A stretch of DNA of 64,000 bases from Halorubrum cibi (GTDB taxonomy: Archaea; Halobacteriota; Halobacteria; Halobacteriales; Haloferacaceae), in assembly GCF_900182635.1 (NCBI RefSeq), contig NZ_FXTD01000003.1, forward strand, positions 1-64,000, given 5' to 3'. This document shows, piece after piece, positions 14,228-20,628 of the stretch (position 1 is its first letter; the number at the start of each line of letters is the position of its first letter). The position numbers were made by a program, and so were the translations under genes. The notes below the pieces were generated by a model that saw nothing but the letters and a program-made list of their open reading frames with translations, was not told the origin of the DNA and made no database searches.

Positions 14228-14560
14228 TCAGTCGCGCCGGTGTCCGAGCGGCTTCTTCCGGTCGACCTCGACCTCGACGTGGATCGAGTCCGGGAAGTCG
14301 CGGGCGACGACGTCGCGGGCGATGTCGTCCGCGCCGTGGATCTCCATCGATCGCTTGTACACGTCGTAGCGCCACGGCGAGAACTCGTCGCCGGCGCGGA
14401 GGCGTTTGTACTGAGGGACGCTGACGGTCTCGGGCGAGGAGGCGTGCGGCCCCTTACACTCCGCGCCCTTTCGCTCGAGGGTGTCTTTGAGTTCCTGGAC
14501 GGTCTCGGCGAGCACGTCGCGGTCGCCGGAGGCGAAGGAGAGTTTCGTGACGAAGGTCAT
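14228..14560 (-). CDS. Stand-alone uS10/mL48-like small protein
   Basis: A 110-residue protein with the S10 fold signature: MTFVTKLSFASGDRDVLAETV, the loop AECKGPHASSPETVSVPQYK, then IHVEVEVD near the C-terminus. The central residues match the ribosomal S10 pattern (KGP..LP..R) but the protein is not in a ribosomal operon. It is a known haloarchaeal family of S10 paralogues with no assigned role. The ATG at 14560 is preferred because a TTTTTACG box lies about 40 bases before it; longer frames start with Arg/Pro-rich sequence. Confidence 0.75.
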   Translation of the reverse strand: MTFVTKLSFASGDRDVLAETVQELKDTLERKGAECKGPHASSPETVSVPQYKRLRAGDEFSPWRYDVYKRSMEIHGADDIARDVVARDFPDSIHVEVEVDRKKPLGHRRD

Positions 14561-14744
14561 GGCTGGGGGTCGTGGATGAATGGTCCCCCGAGGCGTAAAA
14601 ACACATCTACTGGCGGATCCACTCGGAGGAGGTCGAGCGTGCCGGCTTTCGCGGACCCACACAGATCGACCGAGAGCGCTCGAAAGGGTCGCGGAACCGG
14701 CAATTCCGACACCCTCTTTACTGGTGGTTGCTTACCTGAGGCTA

Positions 14745-15191
14745 ATGACGGTCGAAGCGACCAGTTCCGGAGCCATCCTCTTCCGCGATACCCGCGGCGA
14801 ACGGGAGTACTTGCTCCTGAAGAGCCGACCGGGGGACTGGGAGTTCCCCAAAGGCGGGATCGAAGGCGACGAGGAGCTCCAGCAGACGGCGATACGGGAG
14901 GTGTCCGAGGAGGCCGGAATCGACGATTTCCGCCTCATCGACGGCTTCCGTCGGGAGTACGACTACGTGTTCGAGGCCGGCGGGGAGACGATCCACAAGA
15001 CGGTCCACCTGTTCATCGCGCGCTCCTTCGAGGCGAGCGCGGAGCTCTCGAAGGAGCACCGCGACCTCCAGTGGCGCGATTACGATCAGGCCATCAACAC
15101 GATCACCCAGGACGGTCCGCGGGAGATCCTCGAGGAGGCCCACGAGTACCTCGACGAGCTGCGGGAGGAGGCCGACGACGGCTACGTCTGA
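14745..15191 (+). CDS. NUDIX hydrolase (Ap4A-hydrolase-like)
   Basis: A 148-residue NUDIX enzyme. The box GGIEGDEELQQTAIREVSEEAGI at 37-59 fits GX5EX7REUXEEXGU, with the metal-binding glutamates intact. The start TSSGAILFRDTRGEREYLLLK and the sequence WEFPKGG are those of bis(5'-nucleosyl)-tetraphosphatase members, which clear Ap4A and similar nucleotides. The ATG at 14745 leaves a normal N-terminal strand; upstream residues are basic and shadow-like. The next gene follows 60 bases later on the same strand and may be co-transcribed. Confidence 0.88.
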   Translation: MTVEATSSGAILFRDTRGEREYLLLKSRPGDWEFPKGGIEGDEELQQTAIREVSEEAGIDDFRLIDGFRREYDYVFEAGGETIHKTVHLFIARSFEASAELSKEHRDLQWRDYDQAINTITQDGPREILEEAHEYLDELREEADDGYV

Positions 15192-15251: not shown

Positions 15252-16289
15252 GTGATCCCCGACGCCGAGTTCGGCTACGAGCTGCTCGTCTGCCGGTACG
15301 CCGAGTTGGCGTGGTACCCCGGCGACGATCCACGCCCGGCGATCGTCTCCAGACAGCTCGGTACGAAGCGGCGGCGCTGGGACACCGTCGTGATCGAGGT
15401 CGATCCGGAGGCGTTCGCCGCGCGGCGAGCCTTCGGCGACCGCGCTCTCGACTCCGATCTCCTCCACGTCGTCCGGGACGCGCCGGCGACGTGGACGTGG
15501 TACCGCGACGCGCTCCCCGACCCGGGGTACCCGTGGCGGTACGTCCGGCGGGCGGTCCACCGCGCCGGGGGCCGGGAGTTGATCGAGAAACGACGGCGCG
15601 GAAACCGGATCGAGATCCGACGTCATCGGCCGTATCCGGACTGGGTCGAACGGATCGTCGCGATCGAAAACAAGCCGGACCTCGACCGATCGGCGGCGGA
15701 CGCGCTCGCCGACCAGCTCGCCCACGACGTCGAGACCGCCCTCGCCGACGAGGTCTGGCTCGCGACGGAGACGACGGGCGATCGCGTCGAGCCCGCGCTC
15801 CTCCGGGAGATGCCCGTGGAGGCGGGAATCCTGACCACCTCGTTCGCCGCCGGAGACCCCGAGAGCGACGACGATCCCGGAATCGAGGGCGTCGCCGTCG
15901 ATCCGGCCGCCGCGACCGTGGACTGGCTCCCGAGCGACCTCGCGCCGAACGACCCGAGCGAGCGCGATCCCGGGACGGTCACCCGCCGGCTGGAGATTGC
16001 CGAGCGGGCCTACGGCAAGGGGTGGCGTTCCTATCACGACACGATGCGGCCGGACTGTCGGCACTTCGAGCTTCGGCGCGCCGGCCGGGCGCTCGTTCCG
16101 CGCTGCGGGGCCAAGGACCGTTGTCCCACCGACCGGGAGTGTTCGGGGTCGTGTCCGGAGTTCTCGCCGGAACCCCCCGCGTGGCGGACGAAGGGGTGGC
16201 CGATCGAGGGCGGGCCGGGAAAGGGGATTCAGGGGCTCCTGTCGCGGCGTCGCGAGCGCGTCCGCGATCGGATCGAGCCCGAGGAATGA
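15252..16289 (+). CDS. DUF5787-type protein with PD-(D/E)xK-like motif and Cys cluster
   Basis: A 345-residue soluble protein from a haloarchaeal family I believe is DUF5787, of unknown function. The centre carries YPDWVERIVAIENKPDLD, with Pro129-Asp130, then Glu139-Asn-Lys141 and Gln155, which resembles a PD-(D/E)xK nuclease core. The C-terminus has five cysteines (269, 285, 291, 297, 301) that could bind zinc or an Fe-S cluster. The start is a GTG at 15252, so the N-terminus is less certain. It follows the NUDIX gene. The nuclease idea is inference; the motif match and cysteines are seen. Confidence 0.72.
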   Translation: MIPDAEFGYELLVCRYAELAWYPGDDPRPAIVSRQLGTKRRRWDTVVIEVDPEAFAARRAFGDRALDSDLLHVVRDAPATWTWYRDALPDPGYPWRYVRRAVHRAGGRELIEKRRRGNRIEIRRHRPYPDWVERIVAIENKPDLDRSAADALADQLAHDVETALADEVWLATETTGDRVEPALLREMPVEAGILTTSFAAGDPESDDDPGIEGVAVDPAAATVDWLPSDLAPNDPSERDPGTVTRRLEIAERAYGKGWRSYHDTMRPDCRHFELRRAGRALVPRCGAKDRCPTDRECSGSCPEFSPEPPAWRTKGWPIEGGPGKGIQGLLSRRRERVRDRIEPEE

Positions 16290-16331: not shown

Positions 16332-19300
16332 TCAGACGAGCGCCGCCGCCAGCTTCTCCACCGGGTGCGGCGGCTCCGGGGCCGCCTCGTCGCGCTCCTT
16401 CAGCTGCGTGCTACAGGACGCGCCGGGCGCGACCACCTCGTCCGCGCCGCTCCCGTCGACCTGCGCGAAGAGGTCCTCGCCGATCGCCTTGCTCATCGAG
16501 TAGTGCTCGGCCTCGTAGCCGAACGAGCCGGCCATCCCACAGCAGGTGGTGTCGAGCGGCTCGACTCCGTAGCCGGCCCGCCGGAGCACGCCGACCGCGT
16601 GGTGGTCCTTCTTCGTCGCCTTCTGGTGGCAGTGGCCGTGGTAGGCGAGCCGCTCGCCGGGCGCGTCGAAGGAAAGTCCCTCGTCGAGCCGGAAGGAATC
16701 GACGTACTCCATGACGCCGAAGGTGGCTCCCGAGAGCGCCGCGACGTCCTCGTCGGGCACGTCGCTGGCGTCACCGCCGAGCAGGTCCGCGTAGTCCGAC
16801 TGGAGCATGACCGCGTCGGTGGGCTCGACGACGACCACGTCCCGGCCCGCCTCGACCTCGGGTGCGAGCGTCTCCACGGTGTCGCGGGCGGTCGCGCGCG
16901 ACTCGTCTATGAGGCCCTTCGAGTGGGGCGGCCGCCCGCTCCCCTTCACGTCCGGGATCTCCACGTGGCAGTTCGTGGCCTCAAGCACGCGCACCGCGGC
17001 CTTGCCCGCGCTCGGGCTCGTGTAGGTGGTGTACACGTCGGGGAACAGTAACACCTCGCGGTCGGCCGCCTCGCGTGGAACGCCCGCGCCGCCGCGGGCC
17101 TCGAACCAGTCGATCAGGCTCTCCGAGCGGAACGTCGGGAGGTCGCGCTCGCTCGCGATGCCGAGCGTCTTCTCGAGGACGAGCCCCGCGCCGGGGAGCT
17201 TCCCCGGCAGGTTCGACAGCGGGGCGAACCGGGAGCCGAGCGGCGCGAGGTCCTCGAACTTCCCGAGCAGCCGGGTCCTGAGGCTCGCGCCGTGCTCCTC
17301 GTGGTGGGCGTGTTCGACCTCGGCTTTCAGCTTCGCCATGTCGACGCCGCTCGGACAGTCCACCTTACAGCCCTTACACCCCACACAGAGGTCCATCACC
17401 TCGGTGACGAACTCGTCGCCGGTGGGGTCGTCGGGCAGTTCCCCGTTCATCGCGCCGCGGAGCATGTTCGCCCGGCCCCGCGTCGACTGGATCTCCTCCT
17501 CGGCGGCGCGGAAGGTCGGACACATCACGCCGCCCGTCGTCTCCTGCGGGCCGCGACAGCCGCCGCAGCCGTGACAGAGTTCGACCATCCCCTGCATCCC
17601 GTTCTCGTTGTCCCACTGCATCGCGGCGTCGAAGCCGGCGTCGAACTCGTAGTCTGCGTCGAACCGGAGGTTCTCACTCATGTCGAAGTCCCCGCAGACG
17701 TTGCCGGGGTTGAGCAGCCAGTCCGGGTCGAAGGCGGTCTTGAGGCCGCGGAACGCCTCCCAGAGGTCGTCGCCGTACAGCTTCCGGTTCCACTGGGTCC
17801 GCGCGCGCCCGTCGCCGTGTTCGCCGGAGACGGACCCGCCGAGACGGACGACCGCGTCGGTCACCCGGTCCGCGATCTCGACCATCGTCTCCACGTCGTC
17901 GACCTGCTTCGTGTCGATCAGCGGTCGGACGTGGAGCACGCCCGGGCCGGCGTGCGCGTAGAACGTCGCGAACGTCCCCGTGTCCTCGAGGATCTTCTGG
18001 AACTCGCGGGTGTACTCGGGGAGGTGTTCGGGAGGGATCGCACAGTCCTCGATGAAGGAGATGTGCTTGGCGTCGGAGGTCCGCGACAGCAGGATCGGGA
18101 GCCCCGACTTGCGCATCTTCCAGAAGCGGTCGCGCTCGTCGGCGTCGTGCGCCTCCATGGCCGCCTGAGCCCGTCGGGGTTGGGCGGTCGTCTCCGCCGC
18201 GCCCGGAGCCGGGTCGGCGACGGTCTCCGCGCCGTCGACGCGATCGGCGACGAGGTCGGCGACCTTCCGCCGGCCCGCCTCGTCGTCCTCGGCGTAGAAC
18301 TCGACGAGGAGGACGGAGTCGGTCCCGTCGGGGAGCATGCCGACGACCTCCGCGAACTCCGGGGTGTCCGCCGCCAGCCCGAGAAGCACGTCGTCCATCA
18401 CCTCGACGGCGGCGGGGTCGTGTTCGAGGACCGGGGCGACGTCCTCCATCGCGTCCAGCAGGTCGTCGTAGGTGAGAAGCGCCACCGCCTTCGTCTCCGG
18501 GATCTCGACGAGCGAGACGGTCGCCTCCGTCACCGTCGCGAGCGTCCCCTCGCTGCCCGCCATGAGCCGTCCGAGGTTGACGACGCCCTCCTCGCCGTAC
18601 TCGCCCCGGTACTCGGCGAGTAGCCGGTCGAGGTTGTAGCCGGAGACGTTACGTTTCATCTCCGGGAATCGCTCGTCGATCTCGTCGGCCTCCTCGTCGA
18701 TGACCCGGACGATCTCGGCGTGGATCCGGGCGAGGAGGTCGTCGCTCTCCGAGTCGGCGGACTCGCGGAGGTCCTCGACCCGCTCCTCGCCGAAGGTGGC
18801 GACGGTCCCGTCCGCGAGCACGACCTCCAGCTCCTCGACGTAGTGGTCGGTCTTGCCGTACTTGAGCGAGTGCGACCCGGTGGAGTTGTTGCCGATCGCG
18901 CCGCCGACCGCCGACTTGTCGCGCCAGGCGGGGTCGGGCGCGAACTTCAGGCCGTGCGGCTCGACCGCCGCGTTGAGGTCGCCGACGTACGCGCCGGCCT
19001 CGACGCGGGCGGTTCGCGCCTCGGGGTCGGCCTCGAGCACCGAGTCCAGCGCCTTGGAGAAGTCGAGGACGACGGCCTCGTTCACGGTTTGGCCGGCGAG
19101 CGAAGTACCGCCGCCACGGGGCAACACCGGAACCCCTTCCTCGAAGCAGTACTCCTGAACCGCGGCCACGTCCGCCGTCGACTCGGGGAAGACGACGCCG
19201 ATCGGCGTCACTTCGTAGGCCGAGGCGTCGGTCGCGTACAGCCGGCGCGAGTAGTCGTCGAACCGCACGTCCCCCTCGACGCGTCGGTCGAGCGCGTCGA

Positions 19301-19391
19301 CGAGGTCGGGGCGTTCGACCTCCCCGCCGGTGTACTCGAAGTTACCCCCCTCCCGCGGGTCGATCTCCGACCCGCTCGAGTGTGTTGCCAT
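16332..19391 (-). CDS. FAD/Fe-S 2-hydroxyacid (D-lactate/glycolate-type) dehydrogenase
   Basis: A 1019-residue fusion. Residues about 45-510 are a GlcD-like FAD-linked oxidase: VLPRGGGTSLAGQTV is the FAD PP-loop, and the C-terminal oxidase cap contains GEHGDGRART. Residues about 600-700 hold two 4Fe-4S motifs (CHGCGGCRGP and CVGCKGCKVDCP). The C-terminus is a GlpC-like CCG domain with HGHCHQK and TTCCGMAG. Single-chain proteins of this kind oxidise D-lactate, glycolate or 2-hydroxyglutarate and feed electrons to the respiratory chain. The ATG at 19391 begins the conserved part; upstream residues are low complexity. It is divergent from the antiporter gene. Confidence 0.88.
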   Translation of the reverse strand: MATHSSGSEIDPREGGNFEYTGGEVERPDLVDALDRRVEGDVRFDDYSRRLYATDASAYEVTPIGVVFPESTADVAAVQEYCFEEGVPVLPRGGGTSLAGQTVNEAVVLDFSKALDSVLEADPEARTARVEAGAYVGDLNAAVEPHGLKFAPDPAWRDKSAVGGAIGNNSTGSHSLKYGKTDHYVEELEVVLADGTVATFGEERVEDLRESADSESDDLLARIHAEIVRVIDEEADEIDERFPEMKRNVSGYNLDRLLAEYRGEYGEEGVVNLGRLMAGSEGTLATVTEATVSLVEIPETKAVALLTYDDLLDAMEDVAPVLEHDPAAVEVMDDVLLGLAADTPEFAEVVGMLPDGTDSVLLVEFYAEDDEAGRRKVADLVADRVDGAETVADPAPGAAETTAQPRRAQAAMEAHDADERDRFWKMRKSGLPILLSRTSDAKHISFIEDCAIPPEHLPEYTREFQKILEDTGTFATFYAHAGPGVLHVRPLIDTKQVDDVETMVEIADRVTDAVVRLGGSVSGEHGDGRARTQWNRKLYGDDLWEAFRGLKTAFDPDWLLNPGNVCGDFDMSENLRFDADYEFDAGFDAAMQWDNENGMQGMVELCHGCGGCRGPQETTGGVMCPTFRAAEEEIQSTRGRANMLRGAMNGELPDDPTGDEFVTEVMDLCVGCKGCKVDCPSGVDMAKLKAEVEHAHHEEHGASLRTRLLGKFEDLAPLGSRFAPLSNLPGKLPGAGLVLEKTLGIASERDLPTFRSESLIDWFEARGGAGVPREAADREVLLFPDVYTTYTSPSAGKAAVRVLEATNCHVEIPDVKGSGRPPHSKGLIDESRATARDTVETLAPEVEAGRDVVVVEPTDAVMLQSDYADLLGGDASDVPDEDVAALSGATFGVMEYVDSFRLDEGLSFDAPGERLAYHGHCHQKATKKDHHAVGVLRRAGYGVEPLDTTCCGMAGSFGYEAEHYSMSKAIGEDLFAQVDGSGADEVVAPGASCSTQLKERDEAAPEPPHPVEKLAAALV

Positions 19392-19560
19392 GCGACCCCC
19401 TCGCGCTCGGATCGACAAAAGTCCCCCGGGGTCGGCGAACTCGCCCGACTCGCGTCCGACGGATCGTCGAGTCGGTAGATCGCCGAGTCGGCGGATCGCC
19501 GAGTCGCCGGACGCGACGATAGAACGGCCGACACCGATGGTTTCATCCGAACACCCCTCT

Positions 19561-20628
19561 ATGGTGGGGGAAACGATGGTCCTCGGAGGCGTCCTCCCCG
19601 ACACCGCGGCCGTGAACGTCCTGGTGGTCGTCGTCGCGAGCGGAGTGATCTGGCTCGGAAGCGGGTTGCTCGAGGAGGCCGCGGACGGCCTCTCGGCGCA
19701 CTACGGGCTCCCGCCGGTCGTCCAGGGAACGGTCGTCGTCGCGGTCGGGTCGAGCTTCCCCGAATTCGCGAGCGTGGTCGTCACCGCGCTTGCCGGCGTC
19801 TTCGACATGGGGGTCGGCGCGATCGTCGGCTCCGCGATCTTCAACGTCCTCGTCGTTCCCGCGCTCTCGGGGCTCGCGACCGACGCGGACCTCGACTCGA
19901 GCCGGACGATCGTCTACAAGGAAGCGCAGTTCTACATGCTCGCGGTCTCCGTGCTCGTCATCACCTTCGCGCTCGCGATCATCTACGAGCCGGTCGCGGC
20001 CGCGGGCTCGGGAACGACCGGAGCGGCTCTGAAGGGCTCCATCACCCGCCCACTCGCCGTGGTCCCGCTTTTCGTCTACGGGCTGTACCTATTCATCCAG
20101 TGGCAGGACACCGGTGACTACGAGGCCGAACCCGACGGGACGAACGTCGCCGTCGGCCGCGAGTGGGGGAGACTCGCCGCCGGCCTGCTCCTCATCCTCG
20201 TGAGCGTCGAGGTGATGGTGTCGGCCATCGAGTCGCTCGGTCACACCTTCGGGATCCCCGAGTTCCTCGCCGGCATGACGATCGTCGCGGCGGCGACGAG
20301 CCTCCCGGACACGCTCGTCAGCGTCCGGTCCGCCCGCGACGACAACAGCGCGACCAGCCTCGGGAACGTCCTCGGGTCGAACACCTTCGACCTGCTCGTG
20401 GTCATTCCCGTCGGCGTGCTCATCGTGGGCGCGGTCCCGGTGAACTTCTCGACGGCCGTGCCGATGTTCGCCGTCCTCACGCTCGCGACGGTCCTGCTCT
20501 TCGGAACGCTCCGGACGGACCTGGCCCTGACGACGGTCGAGGCGTACGCGCTGCTCGTCACGTACCTGCTCTTCGTCGCGTGGGTCGTCGCCGAGACCGC
20601 CGGCGTGACGCGGATCCTCCCGGCGTGA
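19561..20628 (+). CDS. Sodium/calcium (cation) antiporter
   Basis: A 355-residue ten-helix membrane protein of the CaCA superfamily (YrbG-like). Two inverted alpha repeats are seen: VVAVGSSFPEFASVVVTALAG with GAIVGSAIFNVL in the first half, and IVAAATSLPDTLVSVRSA with GNVLGSNTFDLL in the second. These carry the acidic ion-binding residues (Glu in SFPE, Asp in SLPD). It would extrude Ca2+ or exchange a cation for Na+. The ATG at 19561 is used; an ATG at 19576 is also possible. It is divergent from the dehydrogenase with 169 bases between starts. Confidence 0.9.
   Translation: MVGETMVLGGVLPDTAAVNVLVVVVASGVIWLGSGLLEEAADGLSAHYGLPPVVQGTVVVAVGSSFPEFASVVVTALAGVFDMGVGAIVGSAIFNVLVVPALSGLATDADLDSSRTIVYKEAQFYMLAVSVLVITFALAIIYEPVAAAGSGTTGAALKGSITRPLAVVPLFVYGLYLFIQWQDTGDYEAEPDGTNVAVGREWGRLAAGLLLILVSVEVMVSAIESLGHTFGIPEFLAGMTIVAAATSLPDTLVSVRSARDDNSATSLGNVLGSNTFDLLVVIPVGVLIVGAVPVNFSTAVPMFAVLTLATVLLFGTLRTDLALTTVEAYALLVTYLLFVAWVVAETAGVTRILPA

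Follow-up and report, generated by a model that had tools for sequence, protein, structure and literature searches.

A predicted PD-(D/E)xK nuclease with an internal winged helix and a putative four-cysteine metal site, present as a gene pair across Halobacteria

Introduction

MmcB, which is described as an endonuclease of the PD-(D/E)xK type, gives Caulobacter protection against mitomycin C (PMC9578287). The family DUF1052 has a motif of the AD-ExK type and a length of ~160 amino acids, and occurs almost exclusively in Proteobacteria (PMC1189080). The same study counts SfsA, XisH and DUF1052 among the PD-(D/E)xK proteins and describes the archaeal COG1395 proteins as a combination of PD-(D/E)xK and helix-turn-helix (HTH) domains (PMC1189080). 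Profile methods miss relations within PD-(D/E)xK proteins when families are small or carry large unrelated inserts (PMC1189080). The catalytic residues of the restriction endonuclease PaqCI are D54, E73 and K75 (PMC10201449), and the cysteines used by Cas4 SSO0001 are located at position 32 in the N-terminal part and at positions 188, 191, and 197 in the C-terminal part (PMC4176176).

DUF5787 (PF19100) is a protein family that we compared with these systems. The literature searched under the names DUF5787 and PF19100 contains no mention of the family, and the word nuclease is absent from the main text of a study on the core proteins of haloarchaea (PMC3287961). Here we present a predicted fold assignment, a set of residues that can be mutated and a recurrent neighbor gene for this near-universal haloarchaeal gene pair.

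Results

Identification and distribution of the DUF5787 genes

We analyzed a window of 64,000 nucleotides of Halorubrum cibi DNA (contig NZ_FXTD01000003.1, positions 1 to 64,000), to which the coordinates below refer. The gene for DUF5787 protein A, a predicted PD-(D/E)xK nuclease, is located at 15252..16289 on the + strand and comprises 345 codons with a GTG start. The Pfam model for DUF5787 (PF19100) matches residues 31–306 of the protein with an E of 3.1e-108 and is the sole Pfam family found at E <= 10; no NCBIfam family was matched. As the PF19100 match begins at residue 31, the conserved helix at the N-terminus, which carries E6, E10, and C14 (15252-15341), is left outside the model. All residues on which the original prediction for this protein was built (D44, E49, D51, P129, D130, E139-N140-K141, Q155, C269, C285, C291, C297, and C301) were found at these positions, and C14, absent from that list, is present in protein A as well. 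The closest relatives, among the best 80 of 503 relatives in a contig scan, share 86–89% identity with protein A and are mostly from Halorubrum.

Searching with protein A, we found matches in all 148 sampled genomes of the same family and in 240 of 242 sampled genomes of the same class, counts that include a few genomes (G069, G087, and G250; E ~1e-11 to 1e-16) in which only the paralog matches or the copy is damaged. This breadth argues that the gene is real. The paralog from the same genome, protein B, gave matches in 77 of 78 genomes of the class. With the PF19100 model we obtained matches in 81 of the 392 phylum genomes, all but one of them above the cut-off. Of the 81 genomes in this draw that belong to the same order, 80 have a PF19100 match, in two or three stretches each, and one (G159) has none. 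A wider distribution in the phylum, based on the sole match outside the order (G490), was rejected, as this is a chance match to the Cys-rich region of an apparent methionyl-tRNA synthetase. No true relative was found outside Halobacteria among the 392 genomes, and in this phylum the distribution of the family resembles that of a gene pair shared across Halobacteria. Beyond the phylum, the scope consisted of 14 named control genomes, of which Haloferax volcanii alone has a PF19100 match, and of the contig scan (best 80 of 503 relatives), and rare distant relatives may exist there. As a separate observation, genome G159 encodes an unrelated protein of 341 amino acids (L075, 1082-2107, − strand) in which an acidic strand is followed by an LIEVTRP segment, which is also nuclease-like in look.

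Sequence identity is 50–100% within A, 41–100% within B, and 24–39% between A and B. These ranges fit a single duplication before the class radiated, from which the two paralogs would derive. Viral contigs and phage records searched with A gave no match, nor did the PADLOC models; for B, one weak PADLOC match was observed (cll, E 0.069). A plasmid record of Natronorubrum bangense holds a relative.

Predicted fold and structural matches

Structural modeling with AlphaFold was carried out on 60 aligned A sequences and thus concerns paralog A only. The best model has a pLDDT of 80.9 and a pTM of 0.82, and the other four have pLDDT values of 77.2, 75.3, 72.3, and 54.1, the last being poor. The order of elements in the model is alpha-beta-beta-beta-alpha-beta, and the four-stranded mixed sheet with flanking helices that characterizes the superfamily core is present in the prediction. 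Residues 1–50 (15252..15401, + strand) are predicted to contribute helix 6-20 and the strands 30-37 and 42-50 to this core. Residues 131–196 (15642..15839, + strand) contribute strand 132-140, helix 146-162, strand 167-173, and strand 191-196, according to the model and the core alignments.

A winged-helix domain (residues 66–125; 15447..15626, + strand) was identified with VIA-align between D44 and the ExK strand. In the model it consists of helices 68-76, 84-87, and 95-107, followed by a two-stranded wing (111-116 and 119-124). The domain aligns with 2mh2 (Z 8.5, rmsd 1.7, 58 residues) and with the MarR structure 3bpv (Z 8.0, rmsd 2.2, 60 residues). D44 and E139 are 95 positions apart because of this insert, and would be close in sequence without it, like D54 and E73 of PaqCI. 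Judging from the model, the winged helix inside the motif is the distinctive part of the architecture.

A plain Foldseek search of the A model against the PDB gave no match at E <= 0.001, and winged-helix proteins formed its top rows. We then used VIA-align over 1000 Foldseek chains; among the 50 matches listed, 40 cover only residues 62–129 and 10 reach beyond the winged helix. Of the ten core-reaching structures listed, nine are nucleases or superfamily members, and two are endonucleases by structure title. The highest scores were obtained for PaqCI (8em1, Z 11.2, rmsd 3.4, 160 aligned; 8epx, Z 10.2, rmsd 3.4, 142 aligned) and for SPO1766 (3dnx, Z 10.7, rmsd 3.9, 136 aligned), which we take to be a DUF1052/MmcB protein. 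The others are XisH (2okf, Z 8.7, rmsd 2.7, 113 aligned; 2inb, Z 8.5, rmsd 2.6, 111 aligned), AF1548 (1y88, Z 8.2, rmsd 3.0, 106 aligned), presumably an Mrr-like nuclease, AF2093 (Z 7.9, rmsd 3.1, 109 aligned), the one structure outside the nine, SfsA (Z 7.7, rmsd 3.3, 129 aligned), the Pyrococcus abyssi repair endonuclease 2vld (Z 7.2, rmsd 3.0, 100 aligned), presumably NucS, and BsaWI (Z 7.2, rmsd 3.7, 125 aligned). The three rows above Z 10 weigh most, since, according to the tool, models that lack a clear match commonly reach a best Z of 7–8, and several of the core scores (7.2–8.7) are near that level. Structures of Hjc, Cas4, or AddB are not among the 50 matches listed. In BFVD no match was found at E <= 0.001, and two weak ones (E 0.071 and 0.19) carry the name MmcB-like. 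The original prediction had likened the protein to a PD-(D/E)xK nuclease, and the structure prediction supports the core fold of this superfamily (pLDDT 80.9, Z up to 11.2), with D44 in place of D130.

The profile-profile comparison envisaged for this assignment was run against the NucS and Hjc profiles only, and gave E values (hhalign, 0.15–0.35) that are not significant and fall inside the spread obtained for 10 unrelated families used as controls (0.034–0.95). When the insert was cut out, NucS had the lowest value (E 0.15; best control 0.22), with the motifs not paired; in the alignment with Hjc, IENK was paired with IEVK, over 12 columns only. The best match in a sequence-profile search of the PDB was unrelated (E 0.1). 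Weak matches to DUF7140, all below the cut-off, were observed in 8 of 40 members (best E 0.0052) and in two members of a set of 10, where they cover the Cys region (E 0.15 and 0.55).

Conserved residues point to D44, E139, and K141 as the predicted active site

For the analysis of conservation, two duplicates were removed from a 120-row alignment, which left 118 distinct sequences (71 A, 47 B). R34, E139, N140, Q155, and D159 are found in all 118 sequences, and E6, E10, Q35, G37, D44, and K141 in 117 each. The exceptions at E6, E10, Q35, G37, and D44 all trace to an out-of-frame reading of the N-terminal part at a single locus (L073), and the sole exception at K141 is K141N in one B sequence (L042). 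K141 and Q155 are separated by 13 residues in A (70/71) and by 11 in B (46/47), and 10 residues lie between ExK and Q in 27 of 30 NucS sequences. A glutamine on the helix after the ExK strand is a motif of the NucS/RecB-like nucleases, to which Q155 is comparable.

In the model, D44 (15381..15383, + strand), the predicted metal-binding Asp, is located at the start of strand 2 (residues 42–50), and E139-N140-K141 (15666..15674, + strand), the predicted ExK motif, where strand 3 ends. In proteins of the PD-(D/E)xK superfamily, these two strand ends usually meet. Q155 (15714..15716, + strand) is located on the helix after strand 3. The residues of the (P)D...(D/E)xK motif would thus be provided by D44, E139, and K141, the residue before D44 being Trp43 rather than Pro. 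The metal-binding set likely consists of E6/E10, D44, E139, K141, and Q155, as predicted from the alignment and the model.

The motif as first proposed combined E139 and K141 with D130. The conservation of E139 and K141 agrees with this proposal, but D130 is not supported as the catalytic Asp. It is Asp in 99 of 118 sequences and another residue in 19 (E in 11, N, G, and Q in 2 each, A and T in 1 each). It lies in the loop before the continuous predicted strand 132-140, at the end opposite to that with E139, about nine extended residues or 25–30 Å from E139 as estimated from secondary structure. As D130 is both variable and too far from E139 for one active site, it is probably not catalytic; being acidic in 110 of 118 sequences, it may matter in another way. 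The second option of the original prediction, with D44 in the core, is the one that agrees with the conservation and with the predicted strand.

The winged helices that are the best Foldseek matches would also fit a regulator that binds DNA and whose nuclease-like scaffold has lost catalysis. An inactive scaffold is expected to lose its acidic residues or its lysine, whereas D44, E139, K141, and Q155 are kept in 117–118 of 118 sequences and in both paralogs, and we therefore regard a regulator of this kind as improbable. That the site is conserved to this degree across paralogs of such low identity counts for a nuclease. Since both keep the full predicted site, A and B are probably both active.

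A predicted four-cysteine site in the C-terminal part

The C-terminal part of protein A contains a predicted four-Cys metal site (Zn or Fe-S), C269-x15-C285-x11-C297-x3-C301 (residues 269–301; 16056..16154, + strand). Each of the four cysteines is found in 118 of 118 sequences, and the last two gaps are 11–12 and 3 residues in all 120 alignment rows. The cluster had been proposed to comprise five cysteines, which we rejected as the fifth, C291, is variable (17/118). Across the family, the conservation expected from the original prediction thus extends to E139, K141, and four cysteines, and not to D130 or C291. C269 and C285 stand on either side of a predicted hairpin (272-278/280-285) in a block with a pLDDT of 65–84, which makes a local four-Cys site plausible. 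Folded alone, the C-terminal part has a poor pLDDT of 61.4, and no match better than E 2.1 was found for its model in the PDB. Zinc and an Fe-S cluster are about equally probable as the metal at the predicted site.

A further cysteine, C14 in the first helix, is present in 113 of 118 sequences and could be a fifth ligand. Together with Q155, which fits the Q motif of RecB-like nucleases, it allows for an Fe-S nuclease of the Cas4/AddB/Dna2 kind, in which C14 and the C-terminal cysteines would staple a 4Fe-4S cluster. Cas4 SSO0001 is in line with this, as one N-terminal and three C-terminal cysteines are used there (PMC4176176). However, the four invariant C-terminal cysteines of DUF5787 could form a site alone, where Cas4 SSO0001 has three, and the five copies that lack C14 (one of them frame-shifted) retain the other four. 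The spacing C-x15-C-x11-C-x3-C also differs from that of positions 188, 191, and 197 in Cas4 SSO0001, so that the Cas4/AddB-type arrangement suggested earlier does not describe these cysteines. An Fe-S nuclease of this kind is a possible but doubtful alternative to a nuclease with a separate four-Cys site.

Genes surrounding the two paralogs

The surroundings of the genes were compared in 41 A loci (40 fetched loci and the present one) and 20 B loci. Directly upstream of A lies a NUDIX hydrolase gene (14742..15191, + strand; PF00293, E 9.2e-17), with the start taken at 14742 in an ORF that is open from 14580. An upstream NUDIX gene co-oriented with A recurs in 37 of 41 A loci; it lies within 120 nt in 24 of the 41 and up to ~2.1 kb away in the rest of the 37. 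Divergent from it is an ORF for a paralog with the ribosomal S10 fold (14228..14662, − strand; PF00338, E 1.1e-9, below the cut-off of the archaeal uS10 model), and a divergent S10-fold gene is present in 35 of 41 A loci. DUF5797 (PF19110), a family without an assigned function, is convergent with A in 35 of 41 loci (directly downstream in L114, for example; Pfam-checked on one member), and there is no DUF5797 gene within 5 kb of A in this window. In the window, A converges instead with a gene (16332-19604, − strand) whose long product combines a FAD-linked oxidase domain with 4Fe-4S dicluster and CCG domains (Pfam); we take this product to be an ordinary fusion of the glycolate/lactate-oxidase type. 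Genes that we take to be TFS-like are located near A in 20 of 41 loci. At the B loci we observed what is presumably the gene for aIF2-gamma (16/20), a PIN-domain gene upstream on the opposite strand (14/20), and a metallo-beta-lactamase-like gene downstream (14/20).

None of the NCBIfam matches obtained with the NUDIX protein comes near the cut-off. The best is to MutT1 (E 3.9e-10), and similarity to the RNA pyrophosphohydrolase models is likewise sub-threshold (best E 3.8e-8). The recurrence of the NUDIX gene next to A and this latter similarity, along with the aIF2-gamma and PIN-domain genes near B, would be compatible with a pair acting on RNA 5′ ends, in which a 5′ phosphate or nucleotide cap would be taken off by the NUDIX protein, and the RNA then degraded or trimmed by DUF5787-A in the manner of DXO/Rai1, eukaryotic proteins of the PD-(D/E)xK fold. 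The case for such a pair is one of adjacency, and the match to MutT1 fits nucleotide cleansing equally well. Winged helices, moreover, mostly bind duplex DNA. A role in RNA 5′-end processing is for these reasons unlikely, and we consider a role in DNA repair or nucleic-acid end processing below.

Discussion

By its predicted fold and its conserved residues, DUF5787-A very probably is a member of the PD-(D/E)xK superfamily, and with somewhat less confidence we consider it catalytic. The reading that we prefer on the model and the alignment is a metal-dependent PD-(D/E)xK phosphodiesterase with a winged helix in its core and a four-Cys site, which we consider likely. In such an enzyme the usual core would comprise two helices, bearing E6/E10 and Q155, and strands 2 and 3, bearing D44 and E139-x-K141, respectively. 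D44 and E139, with E6 or E10, would coordinate Mg2+ or Mn2+ (one or two ions), and K141 would help to activate the attacking water. The winged helix would hold double-stranded nucleic acid beside the active site, and the four cysteines may hold a structural metal, with zinc and an Fe-S cluster at similar odds.

DUF5787-A likely has a housekeeping, chromosomal role in DNA repair or nucleic-acid end processing. A housekeeping role is suggested by its near-universal presence in the class, its location near information-processing genes, and the absence of matches to the phage records, viral contigs, and PADLOC models searched. A more speculative extension, to which we give a small chance, is that A and B are class-wide nucleases of a new architecture. 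In these, duplex DNA (or RNA) that docks on the wing would directly set or gate the active site and the four-Cys cluster would serve as a switch, with A and its NUDIX partner taking part in a halophile-specific end-processing or repair pathway. The predicted fold, the mutable residues, and the recurrent neighbor turn this core gene pair into the subject of a direct experiment on halophile DNA/RNA metabolism. The family is present in Haloferax volcanii, a genetic model, and A and B occur in nearly every haloarchaeal genome sampled.

Among known systems, the best structural match is to the type IIS restriction endonuclease PaqCI (Z 11.2), which shares the set of D, E, and K. It differs in that D54 and E73 are 19 positions apart, compared to 95 for D44 and E139, and in having a separate target-recognition domain. 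MmcB/DUF1052 (PF06319), a bacterial PD-(D/E)xK repair nuclease, is alike in core fold (3dnx, Z 10.7) and through the weakly matching MmcB-like phage models. At ~160 amino acids it would have no room for the winged-helix insert and the Cys tail, and PF06319 was matched neither by protein A (Pfam, E <= 10) nor among the 10 families matched by 40 A members. NucS/EndoMS (PF01939) is alike in being archaeal, in its nuclease core (2vld, Z 7.2), and in the E-x-K followed by Q 10 residues on. However, its hhalign comparison to DUF5787 is not significant, the genome that encodes protein A carries a separate NucS_C match, and to our knowledge NucS has no such insert or four-Cys site. The Fe-S nucleases Cas4 and AddB combine a nuclease core with conserved cysteines, as predicted for DUF5787, and differ in the number and spacing of these cysteines. 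In the COG1395 proteins, finally, the HTH lies between two nuclease domains, whereas the winged helix of DUF5787 is predicted to lie inside the core, between D and ExK.
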